Source: Chloroflexota bacterium (GTDB taxonomy: Bacteria; Chloroflexota; Anaerolineae; Promineifilales; Promineifilaceae). Taken from it: 6,876 bases of DNA. The notes under the pieces were generated by a model. That model made no database searches. It had not been told where the DNA came from and saw only the letters and a list, made by a program, of their open reading frames with translations. The position numbers and the translations under genes are program-made. Shown here in pieces: positions 1-6,876 of the stretch; positions within the stretch are counted from its first letter, which is position 1, and each line of letters starts with the position of its first letter. Where the stretch lies: the NCBI GenBank assembly GCA_024223125.1, contig JAAEOP010000863.1:1-6876 (forward strand), written 5' to 3'.

Positions 1-1
1 G

Positions 2-517
2 CGCGGTTCGTTGGCTGCCAATGTTACCAACGCGGCCGTGCGTACCTTAAGCAATATGCCTCTGGAAGACATGTTGGAAACCCGTCACATTATGAGCCGC
101 ACCGTCCGTGGAGAAGTCTCCCCCAAATCTGAGGAGTGGGGGTATAAGCTCGGCTCCGTTTACATCCGCAAAGTTCATTTTCGGGATGCGGAGATGATCC
201 GGCAAATTGAAGAAAAGGTAGTCAACCGGCTGCGCCAGGTCACATCCGCCATTCGCCAGGATGGGGCTAATCGAGTCAGTATTATCACCAGTTCGGCCGA
301 GCGTAAAGCGGCTATTGAGTTTGCCAAAGCAGATGCCATGCGGCCGAAAATTGTAGGCGAAGCTCTGAATAAAATTAGCAAAAACCCAGAAGTGGCTCAG
401 GCCATGTTTGAGATATTGGAAGTGGAAAACATCTTAAAAGAGGATACCCAGATTACCCTGCTGCCAGAGGGAAATGAACTGATGAAGCAGATATTGGGTG
501 CGGAATCAACACAATAA
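2..517 (+). CDS. SPFH/band-7 (stomatin/prohibitin-like) protein, 3' portion
   Basis: The reading frame is open to the left edge, so this is the C-terminal part of a longer protein; an internal TTG at 11 is not taken as the start. About 171 residues are visible. The stretch with 'LEDMLETRHIMSRTVRGEV' followed by 'WGYKLGSVYIRKVHF' is typical of the end of the SPFH domain, where the chain switches from strands to a long helix. The helical part that follows is charged and Ala/Glu-rich ('SSAERKAAIEFAKADAMRP'), as in stomatin-type proteins, and the tail contains 'TLLPEGNELMKQIL'. Members of this family are normally membrane-anchored at the N-terminus and oligomerise as scaffolds near proteases or membrane microdomains; the anchor itself lies outside the window. 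The gene ends at TAA 515-517 and is followed by a terminator-like hairpin at 598-630. The family call is good; which subfamily (stomatin, HflK/C, flotillin) cannot be decided from this piece. Confidence 0.8.
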   Translation, partial: RGSLAANVTNAAVRTLSNMPLEDMLETRHIMSRTVRGEVSPKSEEWGYKLGSVYIRKVHFRDAEMIRQIEEKVVNRLRQVTSAIRQDGANRVSIITSSAERKAAIEFAKADAMRPKIVGEALNKISKNPEVAQAMFEILEVENILKEDTQITLLPEGNELMKQILGAESTQ

Positions 518-597
518 GGAGCAGGTGTGTTTCATTTGATTTATGTATGGTAGGGGCGAGACGACACGAAGGCAAGGTTACTGGATAATTACTATCC

Positions 598-630
598 AAC
601 GGCCGTTCCCAGAAACGGCCGTTTTGTTTT
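598..630 (+). terminator. Intrinsic terminator-like hairpin made of two ACGGCCGT palindromes
   Basis: AACGGCCGTT at 598-607 pairs with the identical, self-complementary AACGGCCGTT at 614-623 around the six-base loop CCCAGA, giving a 10-bp stem. It is followed by a T-rich tail (TTGTTTT, 624-630). It lies 80 bases after the stop of the SPFH gene and before the next promoter candidate, which fits a Rho-independent terminator. Because each arm is itself a palindrome, the structure is nearly symmetrical; the T tail is only on the plus side. Confidence 0.7.
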
Positions 631-662
631 CATGGGGTGTGCGGACTTTTTGATGACAAGTG

Positions 663-711
663 CCCGGCACTTTCCAAAGTCCCCGGCACTTTCCAAAGTG
701 CCGGGGACTTT
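663..711. repeat. Compact repeat: 18-bp direct repeat overlapping a perfect 17-bp inverted repeat
   Basis: CCCGGCACTTTCCAAAGT occurs at 663-680 and again at 682-699. The second copy also belongs to a perfect inverted repeat: AAAGTCCCCGGCACTTT at 676-692 is the exact reverse complement of 695-711, with only CC between. A transcript could fold into a long GC-rich hairpin, or the first copy could compete for the same partner arm. It looks like a REP/MITE-type intergenic palindrome unit with a partial third arm. It is non-coding and sits between the terminator and the promoter region of the peptidase gene. Whether it is dispersed in the genome cannot be seen here. Confidence 0.75.
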
Positions 712-739
712 AACTGCTATCTAGATTTGTACTGATAAT
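710..739 (+). promoter_or_regulatory. Possible promoter of the C69 peptidase gene
   Basis: TTAACT (710-715) and GATAAT (734-739) are separated by 18 bases and resemble -35 and -10 elements (4/6 and 5/6 to the sigma-70 consensus). Transcription would start around 746, giving a leader of about 30 bases that includes the ribosome binding site AGGAG at 763-767. The -35 overlaps the end of the inverted repeat. The match is weak and the call is inference. Confidence 0.3.
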
Positions 740-775
740 ATTCGTTCCAGAAATTGATCAACAGGAGACTTTTCC

Positions 776-2158
776 ATGTGTGATAACATTGTTGCTCTCG
801 GTTCAGCAACGGCCGATGGTTCCGTTATGTTTGGTAAAAACAGCGACCGCGAACCGAACGAACCCCATTACGTAACCATGATCCCCCATGCAGTTCATGC
901 CAAAGGGAGTGTCCTCCACTGCACCTACATTGACATTCCTCAGGTCGAAGAGACCAACAAAGTGTTGCTTTGTAAACCTTCCTGGCTGTGGGGGGCAGAG
1001 ATGGGGGCGAATGAACACGGGCTGACGATTGGTAACACGGCTGTTTTTACCCGCGAAGTTTACGACACGCGCCCCGGTCTTATCGGCATGGACTTTCTTC
1101 GGTTGGGGCTAGAACGGGCCAACAGTGCCCCGGAAGCCTTAGATGTGATCGTTACGTTATTGGAAAAACATGGGCAAAGTGGCAGCAATGGCTTTGCCCA
1201 TGAATTCTATTACCACAACAGCTTCCTTATTGCCGACCCCCGTGAAGCGTGGGTGTTGGAAACCATCGGCTCCCGTTGGGTTGCCCAAAAAGCAAAAGAC
1301 ATCGCGGGCACATCCAATACCCTGACCATCACCACCGAATGGGACATGGCCTCTACAGATTTGATTGAATATGCTCGTAAAAAGGGGTGGGCCAATAAAA
1401 AGGGGGATTTCAATGTCAAAGAAAGCTATAGTGGCGCCGGTTTTTCCGCCAGTCACATTTATGATGTGTTCGGACATGGGGACGAACGACGCCAACGCCT
1501 TACCAGTTTGCTGGAGCGGCATAAAGGGCAAATCAGTCCAGAAATTATGATGCAGACTTTGCGCGATCATGGCACAGACGATCCCGATTACTCTCCGGCT
1601 AAAGGATTGAACCAAAACCCGCCTTGTATGCACGCCGGGGCTGGCCCTATTCGTGTCAGCCAGACAACTGGCTCGTTGGTCTCCCATTTAACGGCCGCTA
1701 AACAAACACATTGGGTGACTGCGACTGCCGCGCCCTGTATTTCCATCTTCAAACCAGTCTGGCTTGATGTGGATTTGCCGGACATGGGACAAGTTCCAAC
1801 CGGCCATTACAACCATGCCACACTCTGGTGGCGGCACGAACGGCTGCATCGGGGCACACTGCGCGATTATCCGACGATGACGGCCGTTTATCGGGATGAA
1901 CGAGATAGACTAGAAGCCCGTTTCCTGAATGACGCTCGTGAACTGGCTGGCAAATCGGCTGCTGAACGGGCTGGATTTGTAACGGCTGCTTTTGCTGAAG
2001 CGGAACAAGCTCTGGATTGTTGGGACAAGGCCGTAGCCGCGACAGAACCGCAAAAAAAAGTCCCTGGTCGTTATCGCAAAATCTGGCGTAAGTTGACCAA
2101 AGAATGCGGTTATAATTTCGGTTTTCGTAAAGATTTCAGTTCGGCGCCATCAGGATAA
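776..2158 (+). CDS. Secernin-like C69 family dipeptidase (Ntn-hydrolase)
   Basis: A 460-residue protein of the secernin/PepD (peptidase C69, formerly U34) family. These are N-terminal-nucleophile hydrolases that cleave dipeptides or related amides after the initiator Met is removed. The N-terminus MCDN supplies the expected Cys2 nucleophile, which also fixes the ATG at 776. AGGAG at 763-767, eight bases upstream, agrees with this start. Family landmarks follow in order: 'ATADGSVMFGKNSDREPNE' (11-29), the hallmark 'WGAEMGANEHGLTIGN' (72-87), 'CMHAGAG' (284-290), and 'TAAPCISIFKPV' (317-328). There is no signal peptide or membrane segment, so it should be cytoplasmic, and the length is near that of secernins. 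It appears monocistronic: a terminator lies upstream, and the next gene starts 61 bases downstream with its own promoter candidate. The true substrate is unknown; some secernin-like proteins have no demonstrated peptidase activity. Confidence 0.88.
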   Translation: MCDNIVALGSATADGSVMFGKNSDREPNEPHYVTMIPHAVHAKGSVLHCTYIDIPQVEETNKVLLCKPSWLWGAEMGANEHGLTIGNTAVFTREVYDTRPGLIGMDFLRLGLERANSAPEALDVIVTLLEKHGQSGSNGFAHEFYYHNSFLIADPREAWVLETIGSRWVAQKAKDIAGTSNTLTITTEWDMASTDLIEYARKKGWANKKGDFNVKESYSGAGFSASHIYDVFGHGDERRQRLTSLLERHKGQISPEIMMQTLRDHGTDDPDYSPAKGLNQNPPCMHAGAGPIRVSQTTGSLVSHLTAAKQTHWVTATAAPCISIFKPVWLDVDLPDMGQVPTGHYNHATLWWRHERLHRGTLRDYPTMTAVYRDERDRLEARFLNDARELAGKSAAERAGFVTAAFAEAEQALDCWDKAVAATEPQKKVPGRYRKIWRKLTKECGYNFGFRKDFSSAPSG

Positions 2159-2180
2159 GTGGTCGGCCACCAACTCCATA

Positions 2181-2210
2181 TTGCACTTCAACCAAAATCT
2201 ACTTTATACT
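2181..2210 (+). promoter_or_regulatory. Possible promoter giving a (nearly) leaderless mRNA for the Usp-DUF389 gene
   Basis: TATACT at 2205-2210 matches the -10 consensus at 5/6. TTGCAC at 2181-2186 lies 18 bases upstream as a weak -35 (first three bases match). The -10 ends only nine bases before the ATG at 2220, so transcription would start at or within about three bases of the start codon. No Shine-Dalgarno sequence precedes that ATG, which agrees with leaderless initiation. Confidence 0.4.
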
Positions 2211-2219
2211 TAAAGCCTC

Positions 2220-4523
2220 ATGAACATTATCGAAGGCCAGTTACCCAAAGAAAAAACTTGGCGTGCCTTAATTTTGCTTTCAACCGGGGAGGAATTGGGC
2301 AAGGCATGGCAGCTTGGCGTTGCTTTGGCTCGCGCCAATGGTGGGCATTTATTAGCGGCTGTTTTTTGCCCAGATATGAACCGTGACGCCGTCAACAAAG
2401 CACAAAAAGTGTTGGCTCACGTTCATGAAGTCATTAATGCCGAAGATAATCCCTTTATACGGCCGTTAATCATCATCGCTCCCAATATAGAATCAGGTCT
2501 AAAAGAGCTGGTTGCTGAAGCCGATGTAGACCTGGTGCTGGCCCATTTAGATGGTCCCATCTGGCACAATCTAAACCAAATATCTTGTGCCGTGGCCGCT
2601 GTACGTGGCGACCGTTCAGAAGTTGAAGGGGAAGCGGCCGCCTCCGGAACAGAAATTTTACAGCATATCATCATGCCCACATCTGCCGGCCCCAACACTG
2701 CCCACTCGCTGCGTTACCTGCTGCGGTTAACACCCAAAATCAAAATCACCGCCATCTACATTGCCCTCAGCTATCTGGGACCCAATGAAGAAGCATTGGG
2801 TCGGGCGCGTCTACGCCAACTGCTGCAATATGTAGATGCCGATGAACGTATCCAGAGTAAAATCGTTACGGCCGATTCTGTCAGCGAAGGCATCGTGTCA
2901 GCCACGCATGATTGTGATTTAGTCATCATCGGCGCCAGCCAAGAAAGTTCACTGGATAAAATGTTGTTTGGGGATATTCCGGCGGCTGTCGTCCGACAAA
3001 GCAAACGCCCCATAGCGATTGTACGCCAACCCCGCAACCGTATTGCCAATTGGTGGAATTGGGTTTCCTGGAAGTTGCAAAAACTGCTGCCATATATGGC
3101 GTTAGCCAAACGCACCGAAGCATATACCCGCATCCGCCGCAGCGCCCGGCCCGATATTGACTTTTATATGCTCATTTCGCTGGCTGCCATTATTGCCGCT
3201 TTAGGTCTTGTAACCAACAGTGGCGCGGTCGTCATTGGGGCTATGCTGGTGGCCCCGCTCATGTCCCCAATTGTCGGTTTGGGAATGGCCATTGTGCTGG
3301 GGGATGCCCGCTTTATGCGTCTTTCGGTGGCGGCCGTGTTAAAAGGTGTACTGCTGGCTATTATTGTAGGGATGTTGGTGGGTTTGCTGCTCGTCATTTT
3401 CAACCTGCCTTTGACAAATGAGATTTTAGCCCGCACACAACCATCGCTGCTCGATTTGGCAATTGCTCTTTTTTCTGGGTTGGCGGCCGCATACGCCCTC
3501 AGCCGTTCCGATGCCGCTGGTGCATTGCCAGGCGTAGCTATTGCCACCGCTTTGGTTCCTCCATTGGCGGCCGTCGGTATTACCTTTGCTTCTGGCTATT
3601 TCTTAGAATCGTTAGGCGCGCTGCTCCTCTTTACCACCAACCTCGTAGCCATCAGTTCCGCCACTGCCCTCATGTTTTTAGTCTTGGGTTTTCGGCCGTC
3701 CCGCGCCCAAAAAGCTCGCCGTCAGGTACAAATGCGAAGTGTGCGCGTGGCTTTATTTTCGCTGGTAGCCGTTTCTATCTTGCTGGTTCTGCTCACCTAC
3801 CGATTGACTCAGGAACAAGCCAAACAAACCCGCATCCAGGAAGTGGCCGCCCAAAAAGTTCAGGAAATCACTGGTGGGCAGTTGGCCGATTTAAGCTATG
3901 ATTTTGTAGAGGATGAAACCGGAAACGAAATTTTAGAAATGGGGTTGATTGTCCGTTCGTCCGGGCTGGTTAGTTTCTTCACTGTCGAGCAGCTTCAACA
4001 AGAGATCGGAACCACATTGCAAAACGAGGGAATTGTGGATCAAATTTCGCTGACAATGGAAGTTATCCGGGTCACAGAGCTGGATCCGCTCATTCCACCG
4101 ACCGCCACCCCCACTCCCACTATAACCTTCACCCCCACCCCTGGCCCCACGCCCACTTTTACGCCGACCCCTACCTTCACGCCGACTCCCACTCAAACGC
4201 CAACAAATACACCAACCTCGACCGCCACCTCCACCTCCACCAACACGCCTACAGCCACGCCCACTCATACAGCTACCCCCACAGCTACGCCCACGTTTGA
4301 CCCAACGCCTACACCGTTGCCAACGGCCGTCGTCGATTCCCCATTTGGTGTCAATCTACGAGCCGAACCAAGTTTAACGGCCGAAATCATCACTTTTTTG
4401 GAAGATGGCACGGCCGTCATTTTGCTTGATGGTTTGATAGAAGCGGAGGATCGTCTCTGGCAACAAGTAGAAGTCAACGGCCGCGAAGGCTGGCTGTCCA
4501 ACGAATTCCTGACCGTGCCATAA
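2220..4523 (+). CDS. Usp-Usp-DUF389 membrane protein with Pro/Thr stalk and C-terminal SH3b domain
   Basis: A 767-residue multidomain protein. Residues about 14-130 form a degenerate universal-stress-like domain. Residues about 146-269 form a second one ending '[37 protein letters not shown]', where the family ATP-loop pattern G-x2-G-x9-G-S appears as G238-x2-Q241-x9-G251-D252, so nucleotide binding may be weakened. Residues about 313-527 hold seven hydrophobic segments (near 313-333, 335-361, 371-394, 409-428, 435-458, 465-490, 508-527); '[17 protein letters not shown]' (337-353) is the DUF389 signature. A soluble region (530-625) precedes a Pro/Thr stalk (627-702) and an SH3b-like domain (703-767: 'VNLRAEPS', '[10 protein letters not shown]'). 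With the Usp part cytosolic, seven segments place the stalk and SH3b outside. The start is fixed by an in-frame TAA at 2211. DUF389 function is not established; a sensor or channel/transport role is inference. Confidence 0.88.
4098..4325 (+). repeat. Low-complexity Pro/Thr-encoding tract
   Basis: About 76 codons made almost only of ACN, CCN and a few Phe, Ser, Asn and Ala codons, encoding repeated [11 protein letters not shown] units (residues 627-702 of the DUF389 protein). Codon choice varies from unit to unit, so this is protein-level repetition with imperfect DNA repeats, not a clean microsatellite. Such stalks in exported proteins act as extended, often glycosylated spacers; here it would hold the SH3b domain away from the membrane. 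Confidence 0.85.
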
Positions 4524-4538
4524 TCAGCAAACCCTCGT

Positions 4539-5648
4539 TTACTCAAACTGCCGCCGAAGAGCAATTCCTCCTAGAGTTGCCAACAAAAGCAAAGCCACAA
4601 CCATAAGCAACCTGGTGGCGCTAGTGTCGTTCACGTGGATGGATTGCAGCTTGACGGCCGTTGGCGAACTCGCCGTCCCCCCCACCGTAAACTCAGACCC
4701 CAGATTGCTGGCATCAACCATAAACGTCAGTTGATCTCCGGATGCGACCCAACCGATCACCGACACATCTGTAAAATCATCATTACTCCCGGCCGCCCGT
4801 TTGAGTAAAAAATAGGTCCCGCTGGGGCTAAAATCAGCGACCCCTGCGTTGCCGCCAGCATCAGAAATATCGAAGGTCAGGGTTACGTTGCCGCCAGCCG
4901 TCCCAGAACCATCGTGGACATCCAGTTCCCAGATGCGCGCCCAGCGTTTGTCGGCCCCGCTGCTGCTCAAATTGGTTGTAACGCCACCCTGGAAAGCGAC
5001 GTTATTGTGCCCAAAGACAATGCAATCGCTGCTGTCGTTAAGGAAAGTGCTGTTGCCAATAATCAGGCCGCTGGAGGAGGACGGGCCAGGGCTGCGACTG
5101 GCAATGATGGCCGCCGTGTCAGTTTGATGGTAGGTCAGGTTGCCCATTGATGAGGCGGCAACGTTGTAGGCGTTGGGGCCGCCGCCGTCATCGTCCTTTA
5201 AATGCACCCAGCCAACGTTTTCGCTCCAGGCATAGCCGTCGAACTCACCGCTGACAGGGTCTATGGTGACGTTGCCGTTGAGATCGTCAAAGTCAATCCA
5301 ACCGACGTTAGTACCCCAAGCAGAGCCAGACAGGTTGCCACAGCCGTCGTTGTTGACGCCGTAGGTGTTGGCAGCGTCGTTGGCGTAGGTATGCGGAGTA
5401 CCGCCGGTTGTAGTTCCCATCCGAATCCAGCCGACGTTTTCGGCCCAAGCGTACCCTTCCAAATGATCGGCGTAAACGTCTACACTGCCGTTGGCGTCGT
5501 TAAAGTTGACCCAGCCGGCATTTGTACTCCAGGCCCATTTATTGGTGGGGTCAATGGTAGCCGCTTGCGCCACACTGAATAATACGAGTGCAAACAGAAC
5601 GGCTAACAAAGGGAATTTTATGTGGTTAATACCCTTTTTAATGATCAT
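4539..5648 (-). CDS. Exported surface protein with four W/Y-A-W-x-x-N-x-G-W repeats and C-terminal membrane anchor
   Basis: A 369-residue protein with no recognised named family. Residues 1-30 are a signal peptide (KK near the start, hydrophobic core, 'VAQAA' cleavage region). Four copies of an aromatic motif follow: WAWSTNAGWV (38-47), YAWAENVGWI (66-75), SAWGTNVGWI (109-118) and YAWSENVGWV (139-148), each in a Gly/Asp/Asn-rich segment, as in uncharacterised beta-rich surface proteins. Residues about 160-330 look beta-sandwich-like and contain 'RWARIWELDVHDGSG' and 'VTLTFDISDAGG'. The C-terminus is a hydrophobic helix (346-364) ending in RRQFE, a membrane-stop or sorting-type tail without LPXTG or a PEP motif. 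C103 and C209 are the only cysteines and could form a disulfide. A strong AAGGAG (complement of 5658-5663) lies nine bases from the ATG. It follows the DUF1566 gene by 40 bases, probably as one operon. Role unknown; adhesion or surface structure is inference. Confidence 0.8.
   Translation of the reverse strand: MIIKKGINHIKFPLLAVLFALVLFSVAQAATIDPTNKWAWSTNAGWVNFNDANGSVDVYADHLEGYAWAENVGWIRMGTTTGGTPHTYANDAANTYGVNNDGCGNLSGSAWGTNVGWIDFDDLNGNVTIDPVSGEFDGYAWSENVGWVHLKDDDGGGPNAYNVAASSMGNLTYHQTDTAAIIASRSPGPSSSSGLIIGNSTFLNDSSDCIVFGHNNVAFQGGVTTNLSSSGADKRWARIWELDVHDGSGTAGGNVTLTFDISDAGGNAGVADFSPSGTYFLLKRAAGSNDDFTDVSVIGWVASGDQLTFMVDASNLGSEFTVGGTASSPTAVKLQSIHVNDTSATRLLMVVALLLLATLGGIALRRQFE
5205..5537 (-). 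repeat. Four diverged repeats encoding the (W/Y/S)AWxxNxGW motif
   Basis: Copies lie at 5508-5537, 5424-5453, 5295-5324 and 5205-5234 on the minus strand (N- to C-terminal order). They share CCA(A/G)CC-(A/G)(A/G)C(A/G)TT-type blocks on the plus strand and encode the aromatic N-x-G-W motif. Spacing runs about 84, 129 and 90 bases, so the units have diverged in length around a conserved core, consistent with old internal duplication. Confidence 0.75.
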
Positions 5649-5661
5649 AATTTATTTCTCC

Positions 5662-5674
5662 TTGACAGTGTCAA
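5662..5674. promoter_or_regulatory. Palindrome TTGACAGTGTCAA overlapping the ribosome binding site
   Basis: A perfect 6+1+6 inverted repeat lies in the 40-base gap between the two minus-strand genes; its left end overlaps the AAGGAG of the downstream gene by two bases. In the mRNA it could partly sequester the Shine-Dalgarno, or in DNA act as an operator. Both roles are inference; a 6-bp palindrome can also occur by chance. Confidence 0.3.
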
Positions 5675-5688
5675 AGGCTCAAAGTATT

Positions 5689-6456
5689 TTATTGCCCGGC
5701 CCGAACAGGCCATGTGTAATAGCTGAAGGTTATATCGTCGTGGTTCACATGGCCATGGTTCAGGCCGACATGCCAAACGATGGTCGTACTAACGATCGCG
5801 TCATGCGTACTCGACCAATAGATGTTTGGCTGGACACTGGTAAAGGGATGACCACTGGGTATTGCGGGAGTATACTGCGAGAAATCTATCAGACTATACA
5901 ACTCATTCACATTCGGCAGCCGCCAGTCACTAGCAACAGAGCCGTCTGTTAATCCGCAGCTTCCGTCTGCCAACCCATTGGCGTTTGATAAGGCATTCGT
6001 CCAAATTAGCATCCCCCAGCAGTTGGCATTCTGAAGCCAGATCAGCCCGGTCAAGTTATCGGTCACGGTGCCATCGGCGTTGTCGGTAAAGCGTGGGCTG
6101 GGCCAGATTACACCCCGCTCCAGGTCGCCGTCGTCGCCAGTGGCGTAGTTGGTTGTCTGTCCGGTTTTGGACACCAACGCTCGCTCCCGTGTCAGGTTGT
6201 ATATGTCATTCAAAGTGTACATTGTGCCTGTTCCCGGCGCGACGCCAGGTTCGGTAAATGTGCTTTGTGTGCCGGCCGACCCATCGTTCAAACTGTTATA
6301 GATGTCCTCCAGCGTGTATGAGCTTGTGTTGGCTGGCGGATTGCTGGAATCAGTTGTGCCGGTTCCTGCCCAAACTGTATAGGCAAAGAACAGGGACAGC
6401 AAGGCTATGACTATAGAAATAACGGTTATGGTTTGCGGTTTAACTTTAATAGGCAT
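5689..6456 (-). CDS. Secreted DUF1566 domain protein
   Basis: A 255-residue exported protein. Residues 1-30 are a signal peptide with a hydrophobic core and 'VWA' cleavage site. Two short repeats, YTLEDIYN (47-54) and YTLNDIYN (80-87), are joined by a Gly/Thr-rich segment containing 'AGTQSTFTEPG', a pattern typical of the N-terminal part of such proteins. The DUF1566 domain covers about 121-253: 'RFTDNADGTVTDNLTGLIWL' (122-141), 'DWRLPNVNELYSLID' (177-191), 'SGHPFTSVQ' (201-209), 'YWSST' (213-217) and the ending 'WPVRAGQ'. C146 and C167 may form a disulfide. The domain has a C-type-lectin-like relationship and is found in surface and adhesin-like proteins; ligand unknown. The ATG is fixed by an excellent AAGGAGG (complement of 6464-6470) seven bases upstream. 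It is the first gene of a likely two-gene operon. The last 45 residues are rich in His, Asn, Asp, Tyr and Thr. Confidence 0.87.
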   Translation of the reverse strand: MPIKVKPQTITVISIVIALLSLFFAYTVWAGTGTTDSSNPPANTSSYTLEDIYNSLNDGSAGTQSTFTEPGVAPGTGTMYTLNDIYNLTRERALVSKTGQTTNYATGDDGDLERGVIWPSPRFTDNADGTVTDNLTGLIWLQNANCWGMLIWTNALSNANGLADGSCGLTDGSVASDWRLPNVNELYSLIDFSQYTPAIPSGHPFTSVQPNIYWSSTHDAIVSTTIVWHVGLNHGHVNHDDITFSYYTWPVRAGQ

Positions 6457-6557
6457 GTAAAAACCTCCTTTTTTGAATGGGAAAACTGATAAATAGAATT
6501 AGCGGATGCAGTATCTGTAATCCTCACATTCCGCACCTGAAAATCGACCTTTTGCGA

Positions 6558-6587
6558 ATAAAAAACGGGTCGTTTTAGAACAGTCAA
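6558..6587 (-). promoter_or_regulatory. Possible promoter of the DUF1566/W-repeat operon
   Basis: On the minus strand TTGACT (complement of 6582-6587, 5/6 to the -35 consensus) is followed after 18 bases by TTTTAT (complement of 6558-6563, 4/6 to the -10). Transcription would begin near 6551, giving a leader of about 95 bases. The spacer contains most of the inverted repeat AAAACG-GGT-CGTTTT (6562-6576), a plausible operator position. Weak evidence, inference only. Confidence 0.3.
6562..6576. repeat. Inverted repeat AAAACG-GGT-CGTTTT
   Basis: Perfect 6-bp arms around a three-base centre, lying inside the candidate minus-strand promoter. It could be an operator. Alternatively, read on the minus strand it is a short stem followed by TTATT, so it might be a weak terminator of a gene beyond the right edge. 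Confidence 0.4.
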
Positions 6588-6673
6588 AGGGGTATCAAAT
6601 AACAACTTTGTACCTCTAACCCCAGCAAGCGAAGAATCTTTAGCCTGACGGGTGAAAGATTTAGAATTTTACG

Positions 6674-6689
6674 AGCAACGATTGTTGCT
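6674..6689. repeat. Small hairpin AGCAAC-GATT-GTTGCT
   Basis: A perfect 6-bp inverted repeat with a four-base loop in the gene-free right-hand region. There is no T tract on either side, so a terminator is unlikely. It may be a protein-binding site or chance. Confidence 0.3.
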
Positions 6690-6876
6690 TCAGAACGATG
6701 TGCCCACGTTCAGCATTAACCGGTATAGCCATTAAACGACAGCTTATATTCATTACAGATTTCAGTAACTTGTAATTGCTATGCTCATTCATTGTCATTC
6801 ACTTCTACAGAAAAGATTTTGCTTTGATCAAATTACGCACGAAGCCAGATAATTCATAAGACTTTTCACAGTTTAC

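Follow-up and report, generated by a model that had tools for sequence, protein, structure and literature searches.

Universal stress protein (Usp) domains fused to membrane transporters have been described in Archaea, as permease-Usp fusions, in the parts of the report available (PMC12159084), whose main text does not contain the term DUF. Extracts on the Usp protein TTHA0350 indicate that a degenerate Usp motif can still bind ATP (PMC3673472), and in excerpts on lysostaphin and other proteins SH3b domains bind the cell wall. The passages retrieved that mention DUF389 are two gene lists (one of genes overexpressed in a pneumococcal study, one of genes associated with traits), a figure legend and an enumeration of neighbouring domains, and they assign it no function; no mention of TIGR00341 was found in the literature searched, nor did a search combining universal stress protein with SH3b, membrane and Chloroflexi return any report. 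Here, we analysed a 6876-nucleotide stretch of DNA from a Chloroflexota bacterium (contig JAAEOP010000863.1, positions 1-6876, hereafter the window), which encodes a single-chain protein of 767 residues made up of a Usp pair, a DUF389 membrane domain, a small ectodomain, a Pro/Thr stalk and an SH3b domain. This order recurs in relatives, and the recurring part points, tentatively, to a Usp-regulated pore or transporter on which the SH3b tail is an optional addition.

Domain order of the protein and its relatives

The gene starts with ATG and continues for 767 codons without interruption as an open reading frame (ORF) at window 2220-4523 (+); antisense ORFs overlapping it were put down to chance. 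All of its Pfam matches were above curated cut-offs: Usp at residues 194-269, DUF389 (PF04087) at 342-478 with 126.3 bits against a cut-off of 23.9 (E 1.1e-36), and SH3_3 at 710-764. The NCBIfam model TIGR00341 was narrowly passed (96.2 versus 94.75 bits) and TIGR00271 was missed (110.6 versus 146.5 bits). The AlphaFold2 model, built from an alignment of 78 sequences, had a predicted local distance difference test (pLDDT) score of 86.2, and values below 50 were confined to residues 242-246, 248-250 and 635-696. Profile matches and fold comparison together confirmed the architecture of the original prediction, namely a Usp pair, DUF389, a Pro/Thr stalk and SH3b. The features are as follows, with TM denoting transmembrane helices.

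2220..4523, +, whole gene, 767 aa, Usp-Usp-DUF389-ectodomain-stalk-SH3b (ORF, Pfam, AlphaFold2)
2253..2624, +, first Usp fold, residues 12-135 approximately, predicted cytosolic (fold comparison; no Pfam score)
2658..3035, +, second Usp fold, residues 147-272 approximately (Pfam, fold)
3102..3143, +, helix before TM1, residues 295-308, surrounded by positive charge (model, charge counts)
3156..3683, +, DUF389 six-helix core TM1-TM6, residues 313-488 (Pfam, model, conservation)
3741..3797, +, TM7, hydrophobic at about residues 508-526 inside the long helix 498-551 (model, charge counts)
3807..4085, +, alpha/beta domain plus the last part of the long helix, residues 530-622 approximately, predicted extracytoplasmic (model)
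4086..4316, +, Pro/Thr stalk, residues 623-699, modelled as largely disordered (model, stalk counts)
4317..4520, +, SH3b domain, residues 700-767 (Pfam, model, fold)

A protein search scored 7992 candidates, of which 2626 matched at E<=1e-10. Profiles built here found DUF389 in all of the 120 listed matches, SH3b in 100 and all five modules in the same order in 99, which excludes an assembly artefact. The expectation that DUF389 proteins end soon after the membrane part did not hold, as 70 of 81 DUF389 ORFs continued for at least 80 residues beyond it. In a sample of 199 genomes from a single class, 58 had a match at E<=1e-30, and 63 of the 66 matched places were examined in a genome census: 11 carried the SH3b tail, 52 had no SH3b match (some being cut by contig ends) and 16 had a long N-terminal extension. 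Among 55 DUF389 ORFs in loci L027-L080, the same profiles matched Usp in 11 and SH3b in none. The SH3b-tailed genome loci within L001-L080 were L001, L002, L003 and L007, all titled Chloroflexota or Chloroflexi. Loci titled Planctomycetota, Lentisphaeria and Verrucomicrobiales encoded Usp-DUF389 proteins without the tail. Single-protein scans of genome contigs and of viral contigs found no relative.

In a tree of 89 rows, nine tail-less rows from the latter three groups formed one clade. The SH3b label changed 14 times, at least 13 of which were forced by well-supported branches, and the long-N-terminus label changed four times; for the 21 P-set rows the label was assigned from protein length, and some of the rows labelled tail-less are cut contigs or possible frame errors in the repeat-rich stalk. 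A single origin of the tail without loss was rejected on these counts. The tail thus appears to have been gained or lost repeatedly while the Usp-DUF389 part stayed, which weakens the proposal that a link from cytosol to wall is the main point of the protein.

Fourteen long proteins were scanned with Pfam, and an amino-acid permease domain scored above the cut-off in eight, below it in four and not at all in two. The permease-Usp-Usp-DUF389 fusions were about 1050-1200 residues long (L005, L008, L016, L133, L139, L142, L149 and L153). In another protein (L095, also L120), Usp-Usp-DUF389 ran on into LTD and PLD-like domains in place of SH3b. The recurring core is thus Usp-Usp-DUF389-ectodomain, with a permease added at the Usp end in the recognised cases and SH3b or LTD-PLD at the far end.

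Topology and the DUF389 core

The model predicted seven membrane helices, so the even number that would have returned the C-terminus to the cytosol was not found. Across the 78 aligned sequences, mean K+R counts on the predicted inside were 6.90 before TM1, 2.12 in TM2-3, 0.82 in TM4-5 and 5.49 in TM6-7, compared with 0.00 in TM1-2, 1.35 in TM3-4 and 0.60 in TM5-6 on the outside; beyond TM7, mean K+R was 2.65 and mean D+E 4.46. Because of this charge bias and the odd helix number, the Usp pair is predicted to lie inside and the SH3b domain with the C-terminus outside, in line with what had been proposed. The fusions fit this topology, with permeases at the Usp end and the LTD and PLD domains of L095 at the opposite end.

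Conservation peaked in the membrane domain, where many of the positions fell into two conserved motifs of the core, one at the break of TM2 (339-348) and one within TM5 (438-448). Among 98 sequences, 14 core positions were invariant, and E401, R405, D412 and N474 were 95-100% conserved. With moderate confidence, the core model resembled aquaporin (MIP) and FNT channels, so that TM1-TM6 may form a 3+3 arrangement of six helices, and the ectodomain between TM7 and the stalk was predicted to fold like the C-terminal domains of cation diffusion facilitator (CDF) transporters; both likenesses were read from 50 listed VIA entries, which leave room for unlisted families. An internal repeat in the core was weak (P 0.0014 with query columns only versus P 0.089 with inserts kept) and is counted as a lead, since the former test was run after the latter. 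A PDB sequence search with the core gave 10 matches to E 10, none accepted as a relative; the best, a designed protein, had E 0.0061 over 21 residues. Two giant-virus proteins in BFVD also matched the core model. One is a mimivirus DUF389 protein (A0A1X9VNW0), with a TM-score of 0.76 normalised by target length; the other, from Heterosigma akashiwo virus, is uncharacterised (A0A1C9C572, TM-score 0.59).

Usp pair, stalk and SH3b tail

The N-terminal part has the Usp fold in tandem, which places it in the universal stress protein family, and its top fold matches were stand-alone tandem Usp proteins; the fold of the pair is also similar to that of the domain which cation-chloride cotransporters have in the cytosol. 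The standard ATP motif, G-2x-G-9x-G(S/T), was absent from all 78 aligned sequences, including the present one, and a conserved G-A-S-x-E-S-S...F-G-(D/N)-I-P (238-254) replaces it in the second fold. A laxer pattern (8-10 residues) occurred in 7 of the 63 census ORFs, sometimes outside the Usp part. Nucleotide sensing, as originally proposed, is weakened by the missing motif, although a degenerate motif may still bind ATP, as in TTHA0350.

Over 101 proteins (the window and 100 relatives), the stalk averaged 72.8 residues (standard deviation 2.7, range 68-82), and at least 93 of the stalks had an even number of residues; among the proteins of the genome census, the 11 with SH3b had stalks of 54-137 residues. 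The pattern looks as if the stalk had grown and shrunk in two-residue steps under a length limit. Stalk likeness, computed on 60 of the 101 with 10 shuffles, was 0.63 versus 0.40 after letter shuffling, so that the narrow length range may partly reflect common descent. The SH3b call near 703-767 held, with both a profile match (PF08239) and an SH3 fold. This end would probably grip the cell wall, and may do so by binding peptidoglycan.

A proposed Usp-regulated pore or transporter and its alternatives

The reading that we favour, at somewhat short of even confidence, is that DUF389 would conduct a small solute or ion, that the cytosolic Usp pair would set its opening and that the SH3b end would, by prediction, fasten the protein to the wall. 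It is the most economical one given the channel-like core model, the recurring core and the permease or SH3b additions. The earlier suggestion of a gated channel or transporter is supported in kind by the moderate aquaporin/FNT-like model, the permease fusions and the cotransporter-like Usp pair, while conduction and gating themselves are steps that we infer. Since the tail looks optional, tethering to the wall would adjust where the protein sits or how it responds mechanically, and would not be its core function. A bolder version, in which the widespread DUF389 family is a Usp-gated pore family of aquaporin/FNT fold, moored in this lineage to the wall by a stalk of near-fixed length so that turgor, through the distance between membrane and wall, and the cytosolic stress state act on one gate, seems improbable.

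An envelope-stress receptor without transport, in which SH3b and the ectodomain sense the wall, the helices relay and the Usp pair passes the signal inside, is rather unlikely. In its favour, a single chain bears domains on both sides, and the N-terminal part has stand-alone tandem Usp proteins as top fold matches, but the tail is frequently absent while the remainder persists, some relatives fuse the core to permeases, no partner gene was conserved across 24 loci, and conservation at the TM2 break and TM5 is more what one expects of a path than of a simple anchor. Anchoring alone would be the role of the membrane domain in a scaffold tying membrane to wall, which we consider a poor prospect. 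Seven other proteins of the same genomes do combine a membrane segment, stalk and SH3b (nine loci were fetched, two of which gave no match); however, most of these manage with one or two helices, judged by eye, and neither the 14 invariant core positions nor the many tail-less relatives (52 of 63, with the contig-end caveat above) suit a tether.

A further candidate is a metal-cation transporter akin to CDF proteins, with a C-terminal domain of CDF type. For the CDF membrane domain, Foldseek gave E 9e-05 with a root-mean-square deviation (rmsd) of about 18. The 11 CDF candidates had TM-scores of 0.19-0.28 at rmsd 17-24, one of the 50 listed VIA entries was a CDF protein and covered the ectodomain only, and none held a CDF membrane domain. 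The C-terminal domain of CDFs is cytosolic, unlike the position predicted here, and with averages of 0.91 His and 0 Cys over the 78 sequences the ectodomain offers few metal-ligand candidates of those kinds. We regard such a transporter as very doubtful.

The pore or transporter reading gives the orphan DUF389 family a testable hypothesis, drawn from the permease fusions, the transporter-type Usp pair and the channel-like model. The domain order would serve as a natural topology marker, a permease marking one end and SH3b or LTD-PLD the opposite one. It would also offer a genetic handle on whether a membrane pore is tuned by being attached to the wall.

Genomic neighbourhood

Only two neighbour clusters occurred in at least 3 of 24 loci, a methyltransferase (3 loci) and another of 5 ORFs in 4 loci, and the neighbourhood was rejected as a functional clue. 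Immediately upstream lies a C69-family peptidase-like protein (window 776-2158 (+), Pfam 51.1 bits), which had no relative among the neighbours of at least 3 of the 24 compared loci and no plasmid match. On the reverse strand, window 4539-5648 (-) encodes 369 residues with repeated GWV/GWI stretches and, towards the C-terminus, a hydrophobic segment and then basic residues, without a Pfam match. The gene at 5689-6456 (-) encodes a protein with an Lcl_C domain and a hydrophobic segment at its N-terminus. A ten-pair terminator-like hairpin lies at 598-623, behind a Band_7 gene fragment; such sites were not in excess in the region (6 found versus 8.5 in shuffles), and nothing in the window reached the Rfam gathering score.

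Comparison with known systems

Aquaporins and FNT channels may share with the present protein the predicted six-helix arrangement and a weak internal repeat; TM7 and the further domains are its own. Sequence kinship with either family was rejected by hhalign, with a probability of 0.2% against 29 MIP proteins (and no Pfam MIP match to E 1) and 0.1% against 23 FNT proteins. Aquaporins carry two NPA motifs and FNT channels a core histidine; the protein has no NPA motif, and residues 290-500 contain no histidine. In the listed chains of cation-chloride cotransporters (SLC12 and prokaryotic CCC), the matched range lies towards the C-terminus, whereas here it precedes the membrane domain, and no membrane-domain link to them was found among the listed matches. 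Amino-acid permease-Usp fusions have a counterpart in the relatives with the order permease-Usp-Usp-DUF389; the present protein has no permease. Lysostaphin, according to the extracts available, carries its wall-binding SH3b on a wall hydrolase, while here the domain sits on a seven-helix membrane protein. With the Pfam DUF389/TIGR00341 proteins it shares the core, to which it adds the Usp pair in front and the stalk and SH3b domain behind.
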